DNA of 46,894 bases from Clostridia bacterium (lineage in GTDB: Bacteria > Bacillota > Clostridia > Christensenellales > Aristaeellaceae), in the NCBI GenBank assembly GCA_017937505.1, contig JAGBDL010000153.1:1-46894 (forward strand). Direction: 5' to 3'. Position numbers and translations under genes: made by a program. This document shows, piece after piece, positions 30,002 to 39,334 of this stretch; position 1 is the stretch's first letter, and each line of letters starts with the position of its first letter. The notes under the pieces were generated by a model, which was not told the origin of the DNA, searched no databases, and saw only the letters and a program-made list of their open reading frames with translations.

Positions 30002-31564
30002 TTATGCGGTTTTGCGCTTCAGGGTCATCAGTGCCACGCCTGCCAGTGCGAGCATCGAAAGCCATAGGCCGATGCGGCTGCTGTCGCCGGTCTTGGGCAA
30101 ATCGACTTCGGGCTGTTCCTCCCATTCAATGACGAACGGACTAAGCGAAGAAACCCGGATACACAGCCCCTGCTTTGTCAGTTCAATCGTACCATCCTCT
30201 GTACTGAACGTTTCCACATCCTTCTCGCTATAGTAGTGACGAATCGTGATGCGGTATGGTTTCATGCTGTCTTTATCCAGCCCTTCAGGATACGGGAAGC
30301 AAAGGATACACGCGGCAGACAGCTTAACCTTCTCGCCCTGACTGTTGATCAGGGAAACATCATAGGTGACACTGTTCTCATTGCCGACGTCAGATGCTTC
30401 GACCTTGAGCGCCATATTCTGCGAGTTTTCCGTTCCGGAGGGGAAAATGATTGTTGGAACGGTCACCGCCTGCATGCTGGAAAACGCATCGCTGTCTTTC
30501 ATGATCACACCGTACTGAGAGGACTCAGGGATGCCCACAGACTTCTCCGCGCCGCAGATGACGCAGTAATCGCAGCCCTCGTAGATATGCTGTTCGATAA
30601 AAAATTCGTCATCTGCGGTCTTTGTTTCGCCGATGACAAAGCCGCAGTCCGGGCACTCATAGCACGTCCACTTGTCACCGAAGAAGGCATGGTTTGCACC
30701 GTCCAGAATCCGGATGTCATACACCGTATCATACCACTGGGGATTTATTCTGTTCTTATGGGTGCAGGCGGTCTTATAGCCGCAGTCTTCGCACACGCCC
30801 TCCGCATCAAAATAGTGCATATCCGTGAACGTGGCATCGATCACAGGCGTTGGGCTGAGCATATAACCGCACTTCGCGCAGCGGCTCTCTTCGTAGGCAT
30901 TGCAAAGCAGCGTATGCGTCTTGGCATCGGTGCTGAGCACCTTCTTGATGTTGTGTATAGACGTCCACGACTGCGTATATTCGTGTTCGCAGGCCTCCAT
31001 ATAATCACACAGTTCGCAGAGACTGCCTTCCTGCGTGGGCAGGAACCATCGATCATGCGTCTCCCTGAACCGGGCACCGGTTTTCACCACGTGTTCGTTC
31101 CAGCGTGTTCTGCAGTCCGGACAGTAATTATAGGCAATGATGTCAGCTGTATAGATGTGAACCTGGTCGTCGCTGGAGATGATCTTGACGGAATCGAAGT
31201 CGATGTCCTTATATTCGAGCACCTGGGGATGCTGGCATACACCGCCGAATGTGCCGCAGTTCTTACACACGCCCTCTTTGTTGTAGCGGCACTTGCCTGT
31301 AAACTGCGCGTTGGTTTCCACAAGCTCAGCTTGACGCATATTGCAGTCTGGGCATTGATGACGTACATATACATCGCAGATAAAGCTGTGCCTTCCATTG
31401 CCGATGTACTCAAAGGAGTGCGGTTCATCATTGGTGAAAAAGCTTTCCATGTCCGGATGGGTACACGCTGTCGTATCGGCCATCGCCTGACCGGCGCACA
31501 GCAGCGTCATCAGGAGGAACAGCAGCCACACAACCGTGTGCTTTGTTTCCCGTGCAGACTTCAT
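30002..31564 (-). CDS. Sortase-anchored Cys-rich repeat protein (LPKTG)
   Basis: A 520-residue surface protein. Signal peptide: about residues 1-29 (TVVWLLFLLMTLLCAGQAMA). Residues about 34-345 hold roughly four to five diverged repeats of about 75 residues, each with CxH or CEH, then a CPDC or CAKC pair, then GVCxxCG. The Cys pairs resemble zinc ribbons or structural disulfides. A beta-sandwich-like region follows, then LPKTG (489-493), a hydrophobic stretch and RKTA, the sortase signal. It should be covalently attached to peptidoglycan and face outwards. No sortase gene is in the window. The start MKSARETKH follows GAAGGAAG. No function is recognised. Confidence 0.85.
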   Translation of the reverse strand: MKSARETKHTVVWLLFLLMTLLCAGQAMADTTACTHPDMESFFTNDEPHSFEYIGNGRHSFICDVYVRHQCPDCNMRQAELVETNAQFTGKCRYNKEGVCKNCGTFGGVCQHPQVLEYKDIDFDSVKIISSDDQVHIYTADIIAYNYCPDCRTRWNEHVVKTGARFRETHDRWFLPTQEGSLCELCDYMEACEHEYTQSWTSIHNIKKVLSTDAKTHTLLCNAYEESRCAKCGYMLSPTPVIDATFTDMHYFDAEGVCEDCGYKTACTHKNRINPQWYDTVYDIRILDGANHAFFGDKWTCYECPDCGFVIGETKTADDEFFIEQHIYEGCDYCVICGAEKSVGIPESSQYGVIMKDSDAFSSMQAVTVPTIIFPSGTENSQNMALKVEASDVGNENSVTYDVSLINSQGEKVKLSAACILCFPYPEGLDKDSMKPYRITIRHYYSEKDVETFSTEDGTIELTKQGLCIRVSSLSPFVIEWEEQPEVDLPKTGDSSRIGLWLSMLALAGVALMTLKRKTA

Positions 31565-34582: not shown

Positions 34583-34675
34583 CTTCGCTAAAGAGTTGGT
34601 CACCATAAGTAAAAGCGCGTTCATCCCTCTTATCCAAGAAGACAAAGACACTCGAATAATCCAATAGACAAAAGA

Positions 34676-34704
34676 AAAACCGCTTCCCGTTCGGAAGCGG
34701 CATC
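34676..34704 (-). terminator. Terminator of the ygbA-like gene
   Basis: Minus strand: CCGCTTCC-gaac-GGGAAGCGG followed by TTTTTC, about 24 bp after the stop at 34728. It is related in sequence to the terminators beside the att copies. Confidence 0.8.
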
Positions 34705-34727
34705 CAGTGCCAAAGCCGGTTTCCCGA

Positions 34728-35057
34728 TCATTTGCGCTTCTCCATCCTGCTTTCCAGCAGATGACGAACCGCCAGAATGGGGTGCGTCCTGAGCATCCTC
34801 GGCCCGGAGTAGCGCATGACCCGTCGAATGCGCTCGCGCATGTCGCCCGAATAGCAATGCACCCGACAGTTGGAGCAGAAGGTCTTGTTCTCCATGAACG
34901 GGCAGCTGTCGCTGCGCGCGTGCGCGTAGGCGGTCAGCGCCGCGCAGTCCGGGCAGAGCGCACCCCGGCGGCCTGTATGGTTGTCCCTGCAATACAGGGC
35001 GATCATCTCCGCCACGACGCGCTTTTCGCGCAGGCGTTTGGCTTCCGTTTTGTTCAT
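34728..35057 (-). CDS. YgbA-like nitrous oxide-stimulated promoter family protein
   Basis: A 109-residue small Cys-rich protein. LCPDCAALTAYAHARSD, CPFMENKTFCSNCRVHCY and MRERIRRVMRYSGPRMLRTHP match the YgbA family, linked in enterobacteria to recovery from nitrosative stress. Seven Cys in two or three groups may bind Fe-S or zinc. The start MNKTEAKRLREKR follows GGGAGGG. It lies just inside the distal island, next to att copy B. The molecular activity is not established. Confidence 0.82.
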   Translation of the reverse strand: MNKTEAKRLREKRVVAEMIALYCRDNHTGRRGALCPDCAALTAYAHARSDSCPFMENKTFCSNCRVHCYSGDMRERIRRVMRYSGPRMLRTHPILAVRHLLESRMEKRK

Positions 35058-35120: not shown

Positions 35121-35207
35121 AAAGCGAGCCATGCCCGCTCCCACCTCCGAACAGCCTCACATCACGAAGCACCTCGGCGCCCGTTGTACGGTTTTCACGC
35201 AATTTCC
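35121..35207. repeat. Intergenic repeat, copy 2
   Basis: The diverged partner of 1356-1439, sharing AAAGCG, CCCGCT, CCGAACAGC, TGTACGGTTTT and ACGCAA-TTTCC in order. It lies upstream of the ygbA-like gene, as copy 1 lies upstream of the P-loop ATPase gene. Confidence 0.35.
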
Positions 35208-35216
35208 CATTCAATA

Positions 35217-35250
35217 AAGAAAAACCGCTCCCCGTTCGGAAGCGGCATCC
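35217..35250 (-). terminator. tRNA-linked terminator carried with att copy B
   Basis: Minus strand: GCCGCTTCCG-aac-GGGGAGCGGTTTTTC, the counterpart of the hairpins at 31915 and 39205. Confidence 0.65.
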
Positions 35251-35277
35251 AACCGGGCGACAAACTCCGGTTTAGCT

Positions 35278-35322
35278 TGGTGGGGTCGATAGGGCTCGAA
35301 CCTACGACCTCCACGATGTCAA
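35278..35322 (-). repeat. att copy B: 3' half of tRNA-Val, boundary between two islands
   Basis: The same 45 bp as copies A and C, ending in the anticodon loop at GATGTCAA. Sequence then changes to a hairpin AAGGCTCCC / GGGAGCCTT, which is island-specific. Confidence 0.92.
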
Positions 35323-35512: not shown

Positions 35513-36334
35513 TCAGAAAAGACACATTTGCTTTCCGCGATCAACATCTATTTTCTTAAAACTACAATGTCCGATTACAATGAATGTATGGAATCTTTCC
35601 ATAGCGTGTACTGTGCCGAAGATCAAATAACCCAAACGAGTATTAGAGAAATTGTTCATCCATCTTTTGTTTAGTTCTTCGAGAGCGGCTTTCTCGTTTT
35701 GATTGTATTCATCGAGTAGTTTCAAGAATGTCCAATTGTATTCCCAGCTTGTTAAGAGCATCCTATGACCTTTACATGAAGGATTGTTACACTCAAAACG
35801 GCAATATATCTTGTAAGGCACTTTTCGTAAAGGCTTGGGATTTGTTTCTCCATCAAGGAAACTAATCTGATTTAGCTGAGTCTTTTGTTCCTCTGTCCAG
35901 TCTGGGGCATCTGCTTCGATTTCGAGGCCAATCATCTTTTTCGGACGAATTGCTGACAGAGATGTTCCCATTTTTTCGTGTTCGTCGAGTACAGTTTCAA
36001 GAGAGTCTTTTTCTTTTTTGCGAATATATTCGTATCTTTCAAGGGCATCCTTTTTTGAATCTAAATATCTAACCTTACGAATGCTACTACAGTCAACAGC
36101 ATAGCTTTCAGGACGACGATCCTTTTGAGGGGGTCTTTTGGTTGCCATTACATCGATCCAATCAAAAATATGAAAGGAAGTTGGTTCTGCCAGATAACGA
36201 TAGGGAATTGGATAAAGTCGTATCCATTGACCGTCATCAGTTATGCCAGCGGTACATACAGTTTCTTTCATTTTTTTACTTGGATGTGGATATGTTTTTA
36301 CAGTAATCAAGACTCTCTTTTTTTCGGATGTCAT
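35513..36334 (-). CDS. Unrecognised 273-residue protein coupled to DUF488
   Basis: A 273-residue soluble protein rich in Lys and Glu. Visible blocks: KKRVLITVKTYPHPSKKM and CTAGITDDGQWIRLYPIPYR at the N-terminus, a charged helical middle (about 95-125), and CRFECNNPSCKGHRM with a CxxxxC-H group that could bind zinc, followed by LLTSWEYNW. I recall the N-terminal pattern only from unannotated neighbours of DUF488 genes. Its ATG overlaps the DUF488 stop by 4 bp (ATGA), so the two form one translational unit. Base composition is AT-rich compared with the chromosome, as expected for acquired DNA. No function is assigned. Confidence 0.7.
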   Translation of the reverse strand: MTSEKKRVLITVKTYPHPSKKMKETVCTAGITDDGQWIRLYPIPYRYLAEPTSFHIFDWIDVMATKRPPQKDRRPESYAVDCSSIRKVRYLDSKKDALERYEYIRKKEKDSLETVLDEHEKMGTSLSAIRPKKMIGLEIEADAPDWTEEQKTQLNQISFLDGETNPKPLRKVPYKIYCRFECNNPSCKGHRMLLTSWEYNWTFLKLLDEYNQNEKAALEELNKRWMNNFSNTRLGYLIFGTVHAMERFHTFIVIGHCSFKKIDVDRGKQMCLF

Positions 36335-36771
36335 AGATTAATAACCTCATCAATCAACGGCATACTTGTTTTGATGTATTGAGCAAGGGCGCTGCGATGG
36401 CATTCTGATGGCTTTCTTTCAAAACACATAATACATGTCTTTTTTTTGATTATGTGTTCCCAAGCTGTTTGGACATAAGAAAAGTGGGTACCAATATAGT
36501 ATTGATATGCTTTAAAAAAAGCTTCATAGTCGTGGGTTTGATGCAAACTATCTCTGATTTCTTTTGGACTACCAAGTTCTTTCATATGTATGTACGAGAT
36601 TCCAGCGTTCTCAAGCGCGGAACATAGCTTACTCTTAGAGAATCCGACTTTACGACTAACAGGGATTTCTCTTACATCGAGTAATTGTTCAATTTCATTT
36701 TTCATAAGAATGCTGATAAATTCGTCTATGTCGCGGCCTTCATAACCTATTGTGTAAACAGTATTGTTCAT
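36331..36771 (-). CDS. DUF488 family protein
   Basis: A 146-residue protein with the family blocks YTIGYEGRDIDEFISIL, LLDVREIPVSRKVGFSK, GISYIHMKELG, and CIMCFERKPSECHRS near the C-terminus. Conserved Arg, Cys and His residues suggest a nucleotide- or nucleic-acid-acting enzyme, but the family has no firm biochemical role. ATG 36771 was chosen over the upstream ATG because the conserved start MNNTVYTIGYEG lies there and AGGTGT precedes it. First gene of a two-gene, AT-rich module on the proximal island. Confidence 0.85.
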   Translation of the reverse strand: MNNTVYTIGYEGRDIDEFISILMKNEIEQLLDVREIPVSRKVGFSKSKLCSALENAGISYIHMKELGSPKEIRDSLHQTHDYEAFFKAYQYYIGTHFSYVQTAWEHIIKKKTCIMCFERKPSECHRSALAQYIKTSMPLIDEVINL

Positions 36772-37030: not shown

Positions 37031-37639
37031 ATGGAAGATATTTTGGATATGGGACCGTGGGAGCACTATAGAACTCACTGGACAATAAAGGATGTGGAGC
37101 TTTCTGAGATCGAGCCGTATTTTGCAAAGGAGAATGGTAAGGGAGAGCCCAAATCTGCACCAAGCAAAGGCGCAGTAACTGCTCAGATTGAGCCGAAACC
37201 GAAGATGCCCCGTGTGTTTGTTTCATACTGTTGGTCGCCGCCTGAGCATAAGACCAAGGTGCTATCCATGATTGAGAGAATCAAGGCAGAAGATATTGAT
37301 GTCTGTTACGACGAGGCTGATTTGCATCCCGGTCAGGACATGAATTATTTCATGGAGAGTGCTCTAAGAGATCCTTCCATTGATCATGTTCTGGTTGTCT
37401 GCAATGAGGAGTATGCTAAAAGGGCAAATGCCCGAACGAGTGGTGCCGGATATGAGTCGGGACTGATTCTTTCGGAGATTCGGGACGATCCGAAGCAGAC
37501 AAAGTACATACCTGTCGTTCTGGATGCAGATGCTGATCTTGGAACATGCTTGCCTGTTTTTTTGAAAAGCAGACTATGTTTAAAGATCTCGAACGATGAG
37601 GGATTTAGAAAGCTGATCGATGCGATCAAGCGTAGGTGA
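37031..37639 (+). CDS. SEFIR/TIR-domain protein, probably 5'-truncated
   Basis: 202 residues from the first ATG. The domain begins near residue 60, RVFVSYCWSPPEHKTKVL, and continues DVCYDEADLHPGQDMNYFMES, HVLVVCNEEYAKRA and GAGYESGLILSEI, the pattern of SEFIR/TIR-like domains used in bacterial immunity and signalling. The N-terminal 58 residues (GPWEHYRTHWTIKDVELSEIEPYF) are not recognised. The frame stays open and protein-like upstream to about 36910 (KIGYRLTGDYICFDVFQT), but with no start codon or ribosome site, so the original gene was longer. A possible catalytic Glu lies in GYESG. It is AT-rich and sits between the DUF488 pair and the integrase. Confidence 0.75.
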   Translation: MEDILDMGPWEHYRTHWTIKDVELSEIEPYFAKENGKGEPKSAPSKGAVTAQIEPKPKMPRVFVSYCWSPPEHKTKVLSMIERIKAEDIDVCYDEADLHPGQDMNYFMESALRDPSIDHVLVVCNEEYAKRANARTSGAGYESGLILSEIRDDPKQTKYIPVVLDADADLGTCLPVFLKSRLCLKISNDEGFRKLIDAIKRR

Positions 37640-37751: not shown

Positions 37752-37864
37752 TTGAGCGTTTGAATTGATTTGACAGGGGAAACTATTCTTTGCATTGAAT
37801 CAAAAACCATCACCTTGACAACTTCATCCTTTTGAATCACAGACATGTTGAAAGGAGATTCGAC

Positions 37865-38980
37865 ATGTCGAAGAGATTGAAAGAACGTGTGCAAACTGGG
37901 GTTGATGATCAGCAGAAACCCGTCTATAAATGGGCTGCGGGATACAGTGCAGCAGAACTTCAGCTGGACATTGCGCGGATTCTAGTGGAAGCAGGAATGC
38001 TTGAAGGCGTGACACCGCAACCACAGGAGACAAAAAAGCTCCCGACATTGCGGGAGTTCATTGATCAGGAATACAGGCCGGCATTCATTGCGAATCTGGA
38101 ACTGACCACACAGGCAAACTATGAATCGTATATCAGCCTGAACATTTTGCCCTTCATGGGCGATATGAGGTTGGACGAAATCAACGTTGGTACTGTGCAA
38201 CGGTTTTATGACTGGATGGCGAACGCCGCATCTCACGGCAGGAAGAAGAACCTGAACAGGAATACTATCGCCAGAGTCAGCGGTTTGCTGAGCAGGATCT
38301 TCAGGGTTGCTCTTGAAATGGGGCTGGTTTCGGAATCGCCGATGAAGAAGACGCTCCTTCGGATCAATGCGGAAGAAGGCGGGCACCATACTGCGCTGCC
38401 TGATGAGGAAGTTCTGCGGATCAAGCGGGAGATTCCTTCTCTTGATGTACGGAACGAACGGCTCTTCATGGGACTGCTGGTTTACACGGGCATGCGTCCA
38501 GAAGAAGTGATGGGGCTCAGATGGGAAGATATCCATCTGGGTAAGCAATACGCGGAGATCAAGAGGGCAGTCACCTATCCGAAGAAGAATCAGCCCGTCA
38601 TCAAGGGAACCAAGACGAAGAAATCCGTCAGAACCGTGATCCTGCCGAAAGCTCTTGTGGGAATCCTGACACCTTGCGCAGAATCAGAGGGTTTTATCTG
38701 CGGTGGAGAACAGCCATGGACATGGACTGTGCTGGACAACATCAAGCGTCGTGCGTACAAGAAGCTCAGGATCAAGGGCTTCAGCAATTACGATTTCCGC
38801 TCGACCTTCGGCACGCAGTTAAAAGAAAGCGGGCTTTCTTCTGCAATCGTTGCCGATCTCATGGGCCATGCGGACACAAGAATGGTTGAAACAGTTTATG
38901 CCCGAACGAGGCACGAGGGAGTCATGAAGCAACTGGAAGCAGTTGAAGCTATAAATTCGGGAATAACAGCAGGTTTGTGA
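37865..38980 (+). CDS. Tyrosine integrase of the tRNA-Val island
   Basis: A 371-residue site-specific recombinase. Residues about 60-165 form the core-binding SAM-like domain (TLREFIDQEYRPAF...), and 175-360 the catalytic domain: YTGMRPEEVMGL (Arg 211), KGTKTKKS (Lys about 250), SNYDFRSTFGTQL (Arg 312; the usual His of HxxR is Tyr), MGHAD (His 335) and Tyr 345 in ETVYARTR. It should insert the island into the 3' half of tRNA-Val. ATG 37865 follows AAAGGAGA at 7 bases. It reads toward the tRNA, as integrases at attR often do. The frame is full length, so activity is possible. Confidence 0.93.
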   Translation: MSKRLKERVQTGVDDQQKPVYKWAAGYSAAELQLDIARILVEAGMLEGVTPQPQETKKLPTLREFIDQEYRPAFIANLELTTQANYESYISLNILPFMGDMRLDEINVGTVQRFYDWMANAASHGRKKNLNRNTIARVSGLLSRIFRVALEMGLVSESPMKKTLLRINAEEGGHHTALPDEEVLRIKREIPSLDVRNERLFMGLLVYTGMRPEEVMGLRWEDIHLGKQYAEIKRAVTYPKKNQPVIKGTKTKKSVRTVILPKALVGILTPCAESEGFICGGEQPWTWTVLDNIKRRAYKKLRIKGFSNYDFRSTFGTQLKESGLSSAIVADLMGHADTRMVETVYARTRHEGVMKQLEAVEAINSGITAGL

Positions 38981-39074: not shown

Positions 39075-39202
39075 AAACGCGATTTTTTGAGGTTTGATCC
39101 ACTTTTGAGCATGCTTGAATGGGGTTCAAGAGCAAGAAAAAAGCGGGAACGAACCTTCGAAAATAGATTCATTCCCGCTTTCAAAAACCAATGAAATAAA
39201 GA

Positions 39203-39232
39203 AAAACCGCCTCTTCCGAAGCGGTTCCCAGC
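39203..39232 (-). terminator. Terminator downstream of tRNA-Val
   Basis: Minus strand: ACCGCTTC-ggaa-GAGGCGGT and TTTTTC, about 26 bp after the CCA end of the tRNA. Confidence 0.75.
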
Positions 39233-39257
39233 GGGGCGACTAACTCCCACTGTAGCT

Positions 39258-39302
39258 TGGTGGGGTCGATAGGGCTCGAACCTACGACCTCCACGATGTC
39301 AA
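39258..39302 (-). repeat. att copy C: 3' half of the intact tRNA-Val
   Basis: The tRNA-proximal copy of the 45-bp identity that also occurs at 31968 and 35278. Identity stops exactly at the anticodon loop. Confidence 0.92.
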
Positions 39303-39334
39303 CGTGGCGCTCTGACCAGCTGAGCTACGACCCC
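39258..39334 (-). tRNA. tRNA-Val (anticodon GAC)
   Basis: Minus-strand cloverleaf: acceptor GGGGTCG / CGACCCC, D-arm GCTC-AGCTGGTCA-GAGC, anticodon arm CCACG-TTGACAT-CGTGG with GAC, T-arm GTAGG-TTCGAGC-CCTAT, discriminator A and an encoded CCA (39258-39260). It is intact, and its 3' half is att copy C of the island. Confidence 0.97.

Follow-up and report, generated by a model that had tools for sequence, protein, structure and literature searches.

A mobile DUF488 gene pair with a predicted tandem OB-fold partner and a candidate sliding-clamp docking motif

The DNA analyzed here, referred to as the window, is a stretch of 46,894 nucleotides from a Clostridia bacterium (contig JAGBDL010000153.1), in which a small genomic island encodes a DUF488 protein and a second protein, hereafter the partner, from two overlapping genes. 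Structure prediction gives the partner two OB folds in tandem, and the protein ends in a candidate docking motif for the beta sliding clamp, which occurs in the tails of its bacterial relatives far more often than in shuffled tails or in other open reading frames (ORFs). We propose, tentatively and at somewhat less than an even chance, that the pair is a clamp-tethered two-protein module that binds single-stranded DNA, with a likely role in defense or conflict; the tandem-OB partner would keep DUF488, which is predicted to be an enzyme, close to DNA under replication. We infer the binding, chemistry, and role of the pair; the fold of the partner is taken from a structural model and the tail motif from sequence statistics.

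Results

A tandem OB fold is predicted for the partner

The partner had been described as unrecognized in a sequence-only reading of the window. This holds for Pfam and NCBIfam, neither of which returned a match at E ≤ 1, but PADLOC already includes the pair as the candidate system PDC-M19. Both model families of PDC-M19 are matched by the window proteins, their genes are adjacent, and the alignment of the partner with model PDLC04508 spans positions 2-260 of 269.

A PDB sequence search with the partner gave no useful match. The AlphaFold2 model of the partner had a pLDDT of 94.7, and a Foldseek search with this model matched RPA (8c5z, E 3.8e-05) as well as Teb1-like and RecO-like OB folds, suggesting a predicted tandem OB protein that resembles RPA and Teb1. 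Two OB domains, as in the Pfam family DuOB (PF22557), are thus present in the partner as predicted by AlphaFold2 and Foldseek/VIA. At the sequence level, the window partner did not reach the DuOB cut-off, being unmatched at E ≤ 1, and one of 10 relatives scanned exceeded it (P0110, 28 versus 27 bits). The predicted second OB domain contains a Cys/His cluster (Table 1), and the conservation of its residues C182 and H190 is at least 90% in an alignment of 45 proteins.

A candidate clamp-docking motif is enriched in the tails of bacterial partners

In the available text of PMC4549789, the beta-clamp consensus is given as QLxLF, often located at the C-terminal end. The window partner ends in QMCLF, a QLxLF-type motif with methionine replacing leucine at position 2, and in many other partners a variable linker after the fold leads to an end such as QLSLF, QMSLF, or QLPLF. 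For the tail counts, 232 partners were reduced to 218 with a complete core (14 dropped) and then to 156 under 70% identity. A Q..[LM][FL] motif was present within the last 18 residues of 56 of these 156 bacterial partners, compared with a mean of 3.1 and a maximum of 11 in 1000 shuffles, and a tighter form was present in 26 (shuffles 0.3, maximum 3). Exact QLxLF was found in 19 partners, at the very end in 13 of them. Among control sequences, the Q..[LM][FL] tail occurred in 5 of 1313 other ORFs of at least 200 residues and in 7 of 1282 complete gene-like neighboring ORFs, where exact QLxLF was absent (0/1282); a wider form, Q..[LMI][FLM], was found in 0 of 110 DUF488 tails. Because the tail matches a clamp docking signal, the pair would be expected to work at replicating DNA.

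By phylum, the motif was present at 13 of 19 genome loci from Chloroflexota, 3 of 16 from Planctomycetota, and 0 of 2 each from Bacillota and Pseudomonadota. Among plasmid copies with the motif, the Pseudomonas partner ends in QISLF and the Fischerella partner in QLSLF. A quick tree was made from partner sequences stripped of their last 18 residues. The wider tail motif, carried by 63 of its 185 tips, requires 40 changes on this tree; this count, taken from unshuffled data, is as would be expected from repeated gain of a short motif. No clear rule connected the tail motif with the type of DUF488, the motif being present in 27 of 70 partners of long forms and 4 of 24 partners of short forms.

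The window partner carries a second QxxL[FW]-like motif in an internal loop, and a Q..[LIMF][FWLY] motif was found in this loop in 108 of 130 aligned bacterial proteins.

One archaeal clade carries PCNA-box-like motifs

A set of 69 proteins was assembled around the partner of the Sulfolobus plasmid pSOG2 (P0123-P0192 without P0188, whose C-terminal part is absent); eight of them have archaeal names, and to judge from the 19 members included in the tree, the set is a single supported group. In many of these proteins the loop contains strings similar to QATLDQYI or TLLEYL. The form Q..[LIM]..[FYW] was present in the loop of 26 of the 69 (shuffles 0.5, maximum 3), and a form resembling the PCNA-interacting peptide (PIP) was found in the loop or tail of 47 of 69, compared with 5 of 130 bacterial rows. 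As many of the 69 are near-copies, the set was thinned. Of the 36 representatives left at 80% identity, 22 have the PIP-like form (mean of 0.9 and maximum of 4 in shuffles), as do 12 of the 18 left at 70% identity. When only the last 18 residues were scanned, a strict PIP pattern gave a weak signal (3 of 36 archaeal representatives, 5 of 156 bacterial partners). One archaeal clade thus bears PCNA-box-like motifs, either in the corresponding loop or at the tail, in place of the beta-clamp type. A parallel is provided by IS1634 transposases, described in the accessible part of PMC4549789 as carrying a beta-clamp motif in bacteria and a PCNA motif in archaea.

DUF488 combines an invariant loop with a variable N-terminus

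The DUF488 protein scored 103 bits against Pfam DUF488 (cut-off 22.2), with residues 15-133 matched; an alternative GTG start 30 bp upstream of the ATG would give 156 residues. Its score for Pfam DUF488-N3a (24.5 bits) lies under the cut-off of 27, which certain relatives exceed. The match to PDLC04505 (E 7.8e-43) covers model positions 149-284 of 294, and the N-terminal half of the PDC-M19A model is absent from the short protein of the window. The invariant residues of the family, namely D-x-R, a tyrosine, an arginine, and C-x-E-x5-C-H-R, suggest that DUF488 may be an enzyme acting on nucleic acid or nucleotides at the replication fork.

Long DUF488 forms possess an N-terminal domain with a weak likeness to SocA/Panacea and DarG. 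The Pfam scan found no Panacea domain in the 146-residue protein of the window, and in 4 of 6 scanned long forms Panacea scored 15.9-18.2 bits against a cut-off of 25.7. The N-terminus of DUF488 varies between Panacea-like, HTH_59, and, on three archaeal plasmids, ParB-helix-turn-helix (ParB-HTH) versions, while the partner is constant. A second DUF488 match in the genome of the window (G000:C165:7092-7313, L136) is weak and lies right at the Pfam cut-off. In Gordonia phage Nymphadora, gp42 (L117:5822-6274, minus strand) is labeled a HipA toxin; it is a DUF488 protein (103.9 bits) paired with gp43.

DUF488 and the partner are encoded as a pair

The sequence-only reading had proposed that the two genes are coupled, and our analysis bears this out. 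In the window they overlap by 4 bp (ATGA, 36331-36334). A partner profile search yielded 112 related loci, namely 80 genome loci, retained from 109, and 32 from IMG/VR, and DUF488 adjoins the partner in 109 of them. It lies upstream on the same strand at 95 loci (window not counted) and in the same arrangement with a shortened or split partner ORF at 4, downstream at 2, and on the opposite strand in convergent orientation at 8. The 112 loci were left unthinned for this count; since their partners still fall into 81 groups at 70% identity (107 at 95%), the pairing is not due to chance, and the co-occurrence expected of a coupled module was found across genomes and among mobile carriers.

Three loci depart from this pairing. 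At two Dehalococcoidia loci a ParB-HTH-ASCH protein is encoded directly upstream of the partner (L011 and L013, Table 1), and a third locus (L028) has an orphan partner between the gene for ribosomal protein L20 and an ORF read by eye as an rRNA methyltransferase.

Of 24 plasmid records with the partner, 12 regions were read (8 bacterial, 4 archaeal). DUF488 stands beside the partner in all 8 bacterial regions; the record of the Fischerella plasmid gives it no name, and we recognized it there by eye from its CHR motif. In 3 of the 4 archaeal regions (pSOG1, pBEU9E1, and Haloquadratum PL100), DUF488 forms the C-terminal part of a ParB-HTH protein. The pSOG2 partner (L114:2998-3864, plus strand) shares its protein accession with the pSOG1 copy, and an integrase occupies the place of the pSOG1 ParB-DUF488 gene.

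The partner is rare in the class to which the window belongs, with 6 of 391 genomes carrying it, the window's own included. Four of the other five loci were read; all four have DUF488, or a piece of it, beside the partner, and two look broken. At L137 (8174-9320) and L139 (619-2346) the partner is apparently split into several frames, as is DUF488 at L137.

The pair is carried by mobile elements in mixed neighborhoods

Carriage on mobile elements is supported by the island itself and by 24 plasmid records with the partner, 32 IMG/VR loci, and 7 Gordonia phage records. PDC systems are described as putative candidates from a guilt-by-embedding approach, mostly without experimental validation, and PDC-M19 is unnamed in the available text of that study (PMC12988326). 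None of the papers searched contains the name PDC-M19, no title among those listed for DUF488 deals with the pair, and no mechanism for it was found in these searches, so the suggestion that the system is undescribed stands with regard to its mechanism, but the pair itself was already a listed candidate. A literature search for clamp motifs or the sliding clamp in phage defense turned up one paper on transposases and one review on applications of phages.

For the neighborhood analysis of genome loci we used the 150 nearest flanking ORFs (gap <1500 bp, at most 900 residues) and the top 25 of 226 and of 137 families. Among the families listed, defense-type matches comprised mad2 (4), mad3 (3), and single methyltransferase models (up to 3), and Fic, TIR, and integrase were found twice each. 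As these counts have no background, we claim neither enrichment nor lack of defense neighbors. The neighbors are mixed, including MurJ, ABC transporter, and tRNA synthetase genes, and no third gene is fixed. In the flanks of viral loci, PADLOC methyltransferase models matched 3-4 ORFs among the best 25 of 211 families. One ORF cluster recurs near the pair at 12 of 113 loci (window included), 7 of which are viral contigs that are near-copies; the one example scanned (L108:4444-5820) is a DNA methylase with a ParB_N-like stretch.

In Nymphadora, the partner gp43 follows the immunity repressor, gp42 is convergent with gp43, and an integrase lies beyond. In another Gordonia phage, CarolAnn, phage defense is conferred in the lysogen by genes that share a transcript with the repressor (PMC6426606). 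CarolAnn 43/44 are a proven defense pair, but of a different, RexAB-like kind (PMC6426606), and they therefore lend only their gene position. Taken together, a defense role is plausible. The immune role suggested by the sequence-only reading gains from the PDC-M19 listing and the position in Nymphadora, but the genome neighbors, with few defense matches among the families listed, support it only weakly.

The pair resides on a small island at tRNA-Val

As the sequence-only reading had noted, the genes are AT-rich and lie on an integrase-bearing island at a tRNA gene, beside a SEFIR/TIR gene. The island measures ~4 kb and holds four genes between repeats: the pair, the SEFIR/TIR gene, and the gene for a tyrosine integrase. 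The GC fraction is 0.376 for the pair, 0.438 for the island, and 0.613 for the rest of the window. The flanking direct repeats are 50 bp long, 100% identical, and cover the 3' end of tRNA-Val (Table 1). Bounded by these repeats and equipped with an integrase gene, the island looks like a small integrative element at tRNA-Val. The SEFIR/TIR protein matches PADLOC bSEFIR (E 3.2e-51) over model positions 37-180 of 412 only, so that the match is not full-length, and NCBIfam gave no match for any of the three cargo proteins.

A hairpin-bearing repeat (AAGAAAAACCGC...) recurs around the two ends of the island, with two to three copies that have diverged (34658-34706, 35203-35251, and 39185-39213). 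Between the two left copies lies a short Cys-rich ORF (34728-35057), perhaps the remnant of an older insertion. Elsewhere in the window, 30002-31564 (minus strand) encodes a Cys-rich protein of 520 residues with a C-terminal LPKTG, a sortase-type signal read by eye.

Table 1. Coordinates of the features discussed (window positions unless a locus is named)
Feature	Position	Strand	Basis or remark
DUF488 protein, PDC-M19A, 146 residues, start ATG at 36771	36331..36771	-	Pfam DUF488; PADLOC PDLC04505
DUF488 invariant loop C116-x-E118-x5-C124-H125-R126	36394..36426	-	invariant across 79-sequence alignment
Partner, PDC-M19B, predicted tandem OB-fold protein, 273 residues	35513..36334	-	PADLOC PDLC04508, E 3.7e-61
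Cys/His cluster C182-x4-C187-x2-H190, predicted second OB domain	35765..35791	-	sequence
C-terminal Q-M-C-L-F, residues 269-273, candidate beta-clamp docking motif	35516..35530	-	sequence; consensus; family enrichment
Internal loop Q156-I-S-F-L, second QxxL[FW]-like motif	35855..35869	-	sequence
SEFIR/TIR-domain protein, island co-cargo	37031..37639	+	Pfam TIR_2 and SEFIR above cut-off
Tyrosine integrase of island	37859..38980	+	Pfam Phage_integrase, E 2e-17
Left copy of 50-bp direct repeat, att-like	35273..35322	.	identical to 39253-39302
Right copy of 50-bp repeat, within 3' part of tRNA-Val(gac)	39253..39302	.	identical to left copy
tRNA-Val(gac)	39258-39334	-	3' end covered by right repeat copy
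ParB-HTH-ASCH protein before partner, Dehalococcoidia	L011:6988-7980; L013:847-1764	+	nucleoside phosphorylase-superfamily gene after

Discussion

In the clamp-tethered module that we propose, single-stranded DNA would be bound by the partner, whose docking on the sliding clamp would let the pair travel with replication. At the fork, the substrate of DUF488 would be nucleic acid or nucleotides, and the N-terminal domains that it bears elsewhere (SocA/Panacea- and DarG-like, HTH, ParB) may tether, aim, or restrain the enzyme. The role would be in conflict with phages and rival elements, in defense either of the host or of the element. An extension, which we regard as rather unlikely, is that the pair is an immune system of the fork: an RPA-like sensor on the host or phage clamp would meet phage single-stranded DNA and free DUF488, which would represent an enzyme class not yet described in immunity, and the motif would swap between DnaN and PCNA types.

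Several findings weigh against the proposal. The case for an enzymatic activity of DUF488 comes from residue conservation and from fold matches that are weak, the best having a Foldseek E of 0.011. The Q..[LM][FL] tail is missing from 100 of 156 bacterial partners, several of which stop directly after the fold, and from the partners at the two ParB-ASCH loci. The motif also occurs away from the tails: when the interior of these proteins was cut into 2157 pieces of 18 residues, 59 contained it, many of them likely from the conserved loop. In the pSOG2 clade, 4 of the 36 representatives carry a bacterial-type tail, and on pSOG2 itself the partner lies beside an integrase with no DUF488 within the 6 kb read. 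A further set comprises 55 relatives of the Haloquadratum protein (2 with haloarchaeal names, the others assigned by similarity). The haloarchaeal clamp is PCNA; the PIP-like motif was found in 0 of these 55, which keep a bacterial-looking QxRLF in the loop, and the loop motif may therefore be structural. Our first idea of the loop as a second clamp site was made unsure by this result, and universal clamp docking would be too strong a claim given the bacterial tails and haloarchaeal-type relatives without a motif. With regard to defense, PDC systems are typically poorly associated with other defense loci, as stated in the available text of PMC13356809. Viral loci (92 flanking ORFs of 26 loci, six near-copies dropped) are flanked by terminase (4), portal (3), head protease (2), and methyltransferase (3) among the best 25 of 150 families, and this phage-contig setting also fits a function in phage DNA rather than host defense.

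An alternative, which we consider improbable to a similar degree as the immune extension, is that the pair serves mobile elements in DNA repair or processing, on lesions or ends at forks, with no immune role. RPA/RecO-like OB folds and a clamp motif such as replication and repair proteins have are consistent with it, as are the scattered genome neighbors described above, the presence of RadC and SSB, and of RecT, near the pair on two plasmids, and the proximity of certain phage copies to terminase; the sporadic distribution within the class, the PADLOC candidate listing, and the Nymphadora pair beside an immunity repressor argue against it. It is also doubtful, and somewhat more so, that the C-terminal QxxLF docks on DUF488 or is a degron, its likeness to clamp motifs being coincidental. 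Such a tail could account for the 28 of 102 loci that end in LF or LL without the glutamine motif, and coincidence would agree with the retention of the loop motif in haloarchaeal-type relatives, whose clamp differs, but it sits poorly with the 19 exact QLxLF tails against none among control ORFs and with the PIP-like forms of one archaeal clade. Finally, we think it unlikely to the same degree that the pair is a toxin-antitoxin system, with the partner as a clamp-binding toxin like SocB or RipA and with DUF488 as its antitoxin, given that the DUF488 gene often includes a Panacea-like domain and in most cases leads the operon.

The predicted RPA-like fold and the clamp docking motif give PDC-M19 a testable mechanism. 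If the clamp-tethered module is real, DUF488, a widespread family whose function is unknown, would gain a place in DNA replication, and the pair would exemplify a mobile conflict module whose docking motif is adapted to the host clamp.

Compared with known systems, the window proteins match the PDC-M19 models, and the clamp motif, OB fold, and domain swaps are first described here. The pair resembles SocAB and RipAB, toxin-antitoxin systems that target replication or the clamp, in the likely clamp contact of one partner and, in long forms, in the Panacea-like domain on the other, although the DUF488 of the window lacks this domain. It differs from DarTG in having DUF488 instead of the macrodomain and a tandem OB protein instead of DarT, and the short form of the window is without the DarG-like part. 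With RPA, Teb1, and RecO it shares the predicted tandem OB fold, whereas the partner is paired with DUF488 and matched no PDB sequence usefully. For an archaeal fusion of DUF488-HTH with a ParB fold, CTP binding is described in PMC12704722. Archaeal ParB-HTH-DUF488 proteins stand beside the partner on pSOG1, pBEU9E1, and Haloquadratum PL100, whereas in the window DUF488 stands alone.
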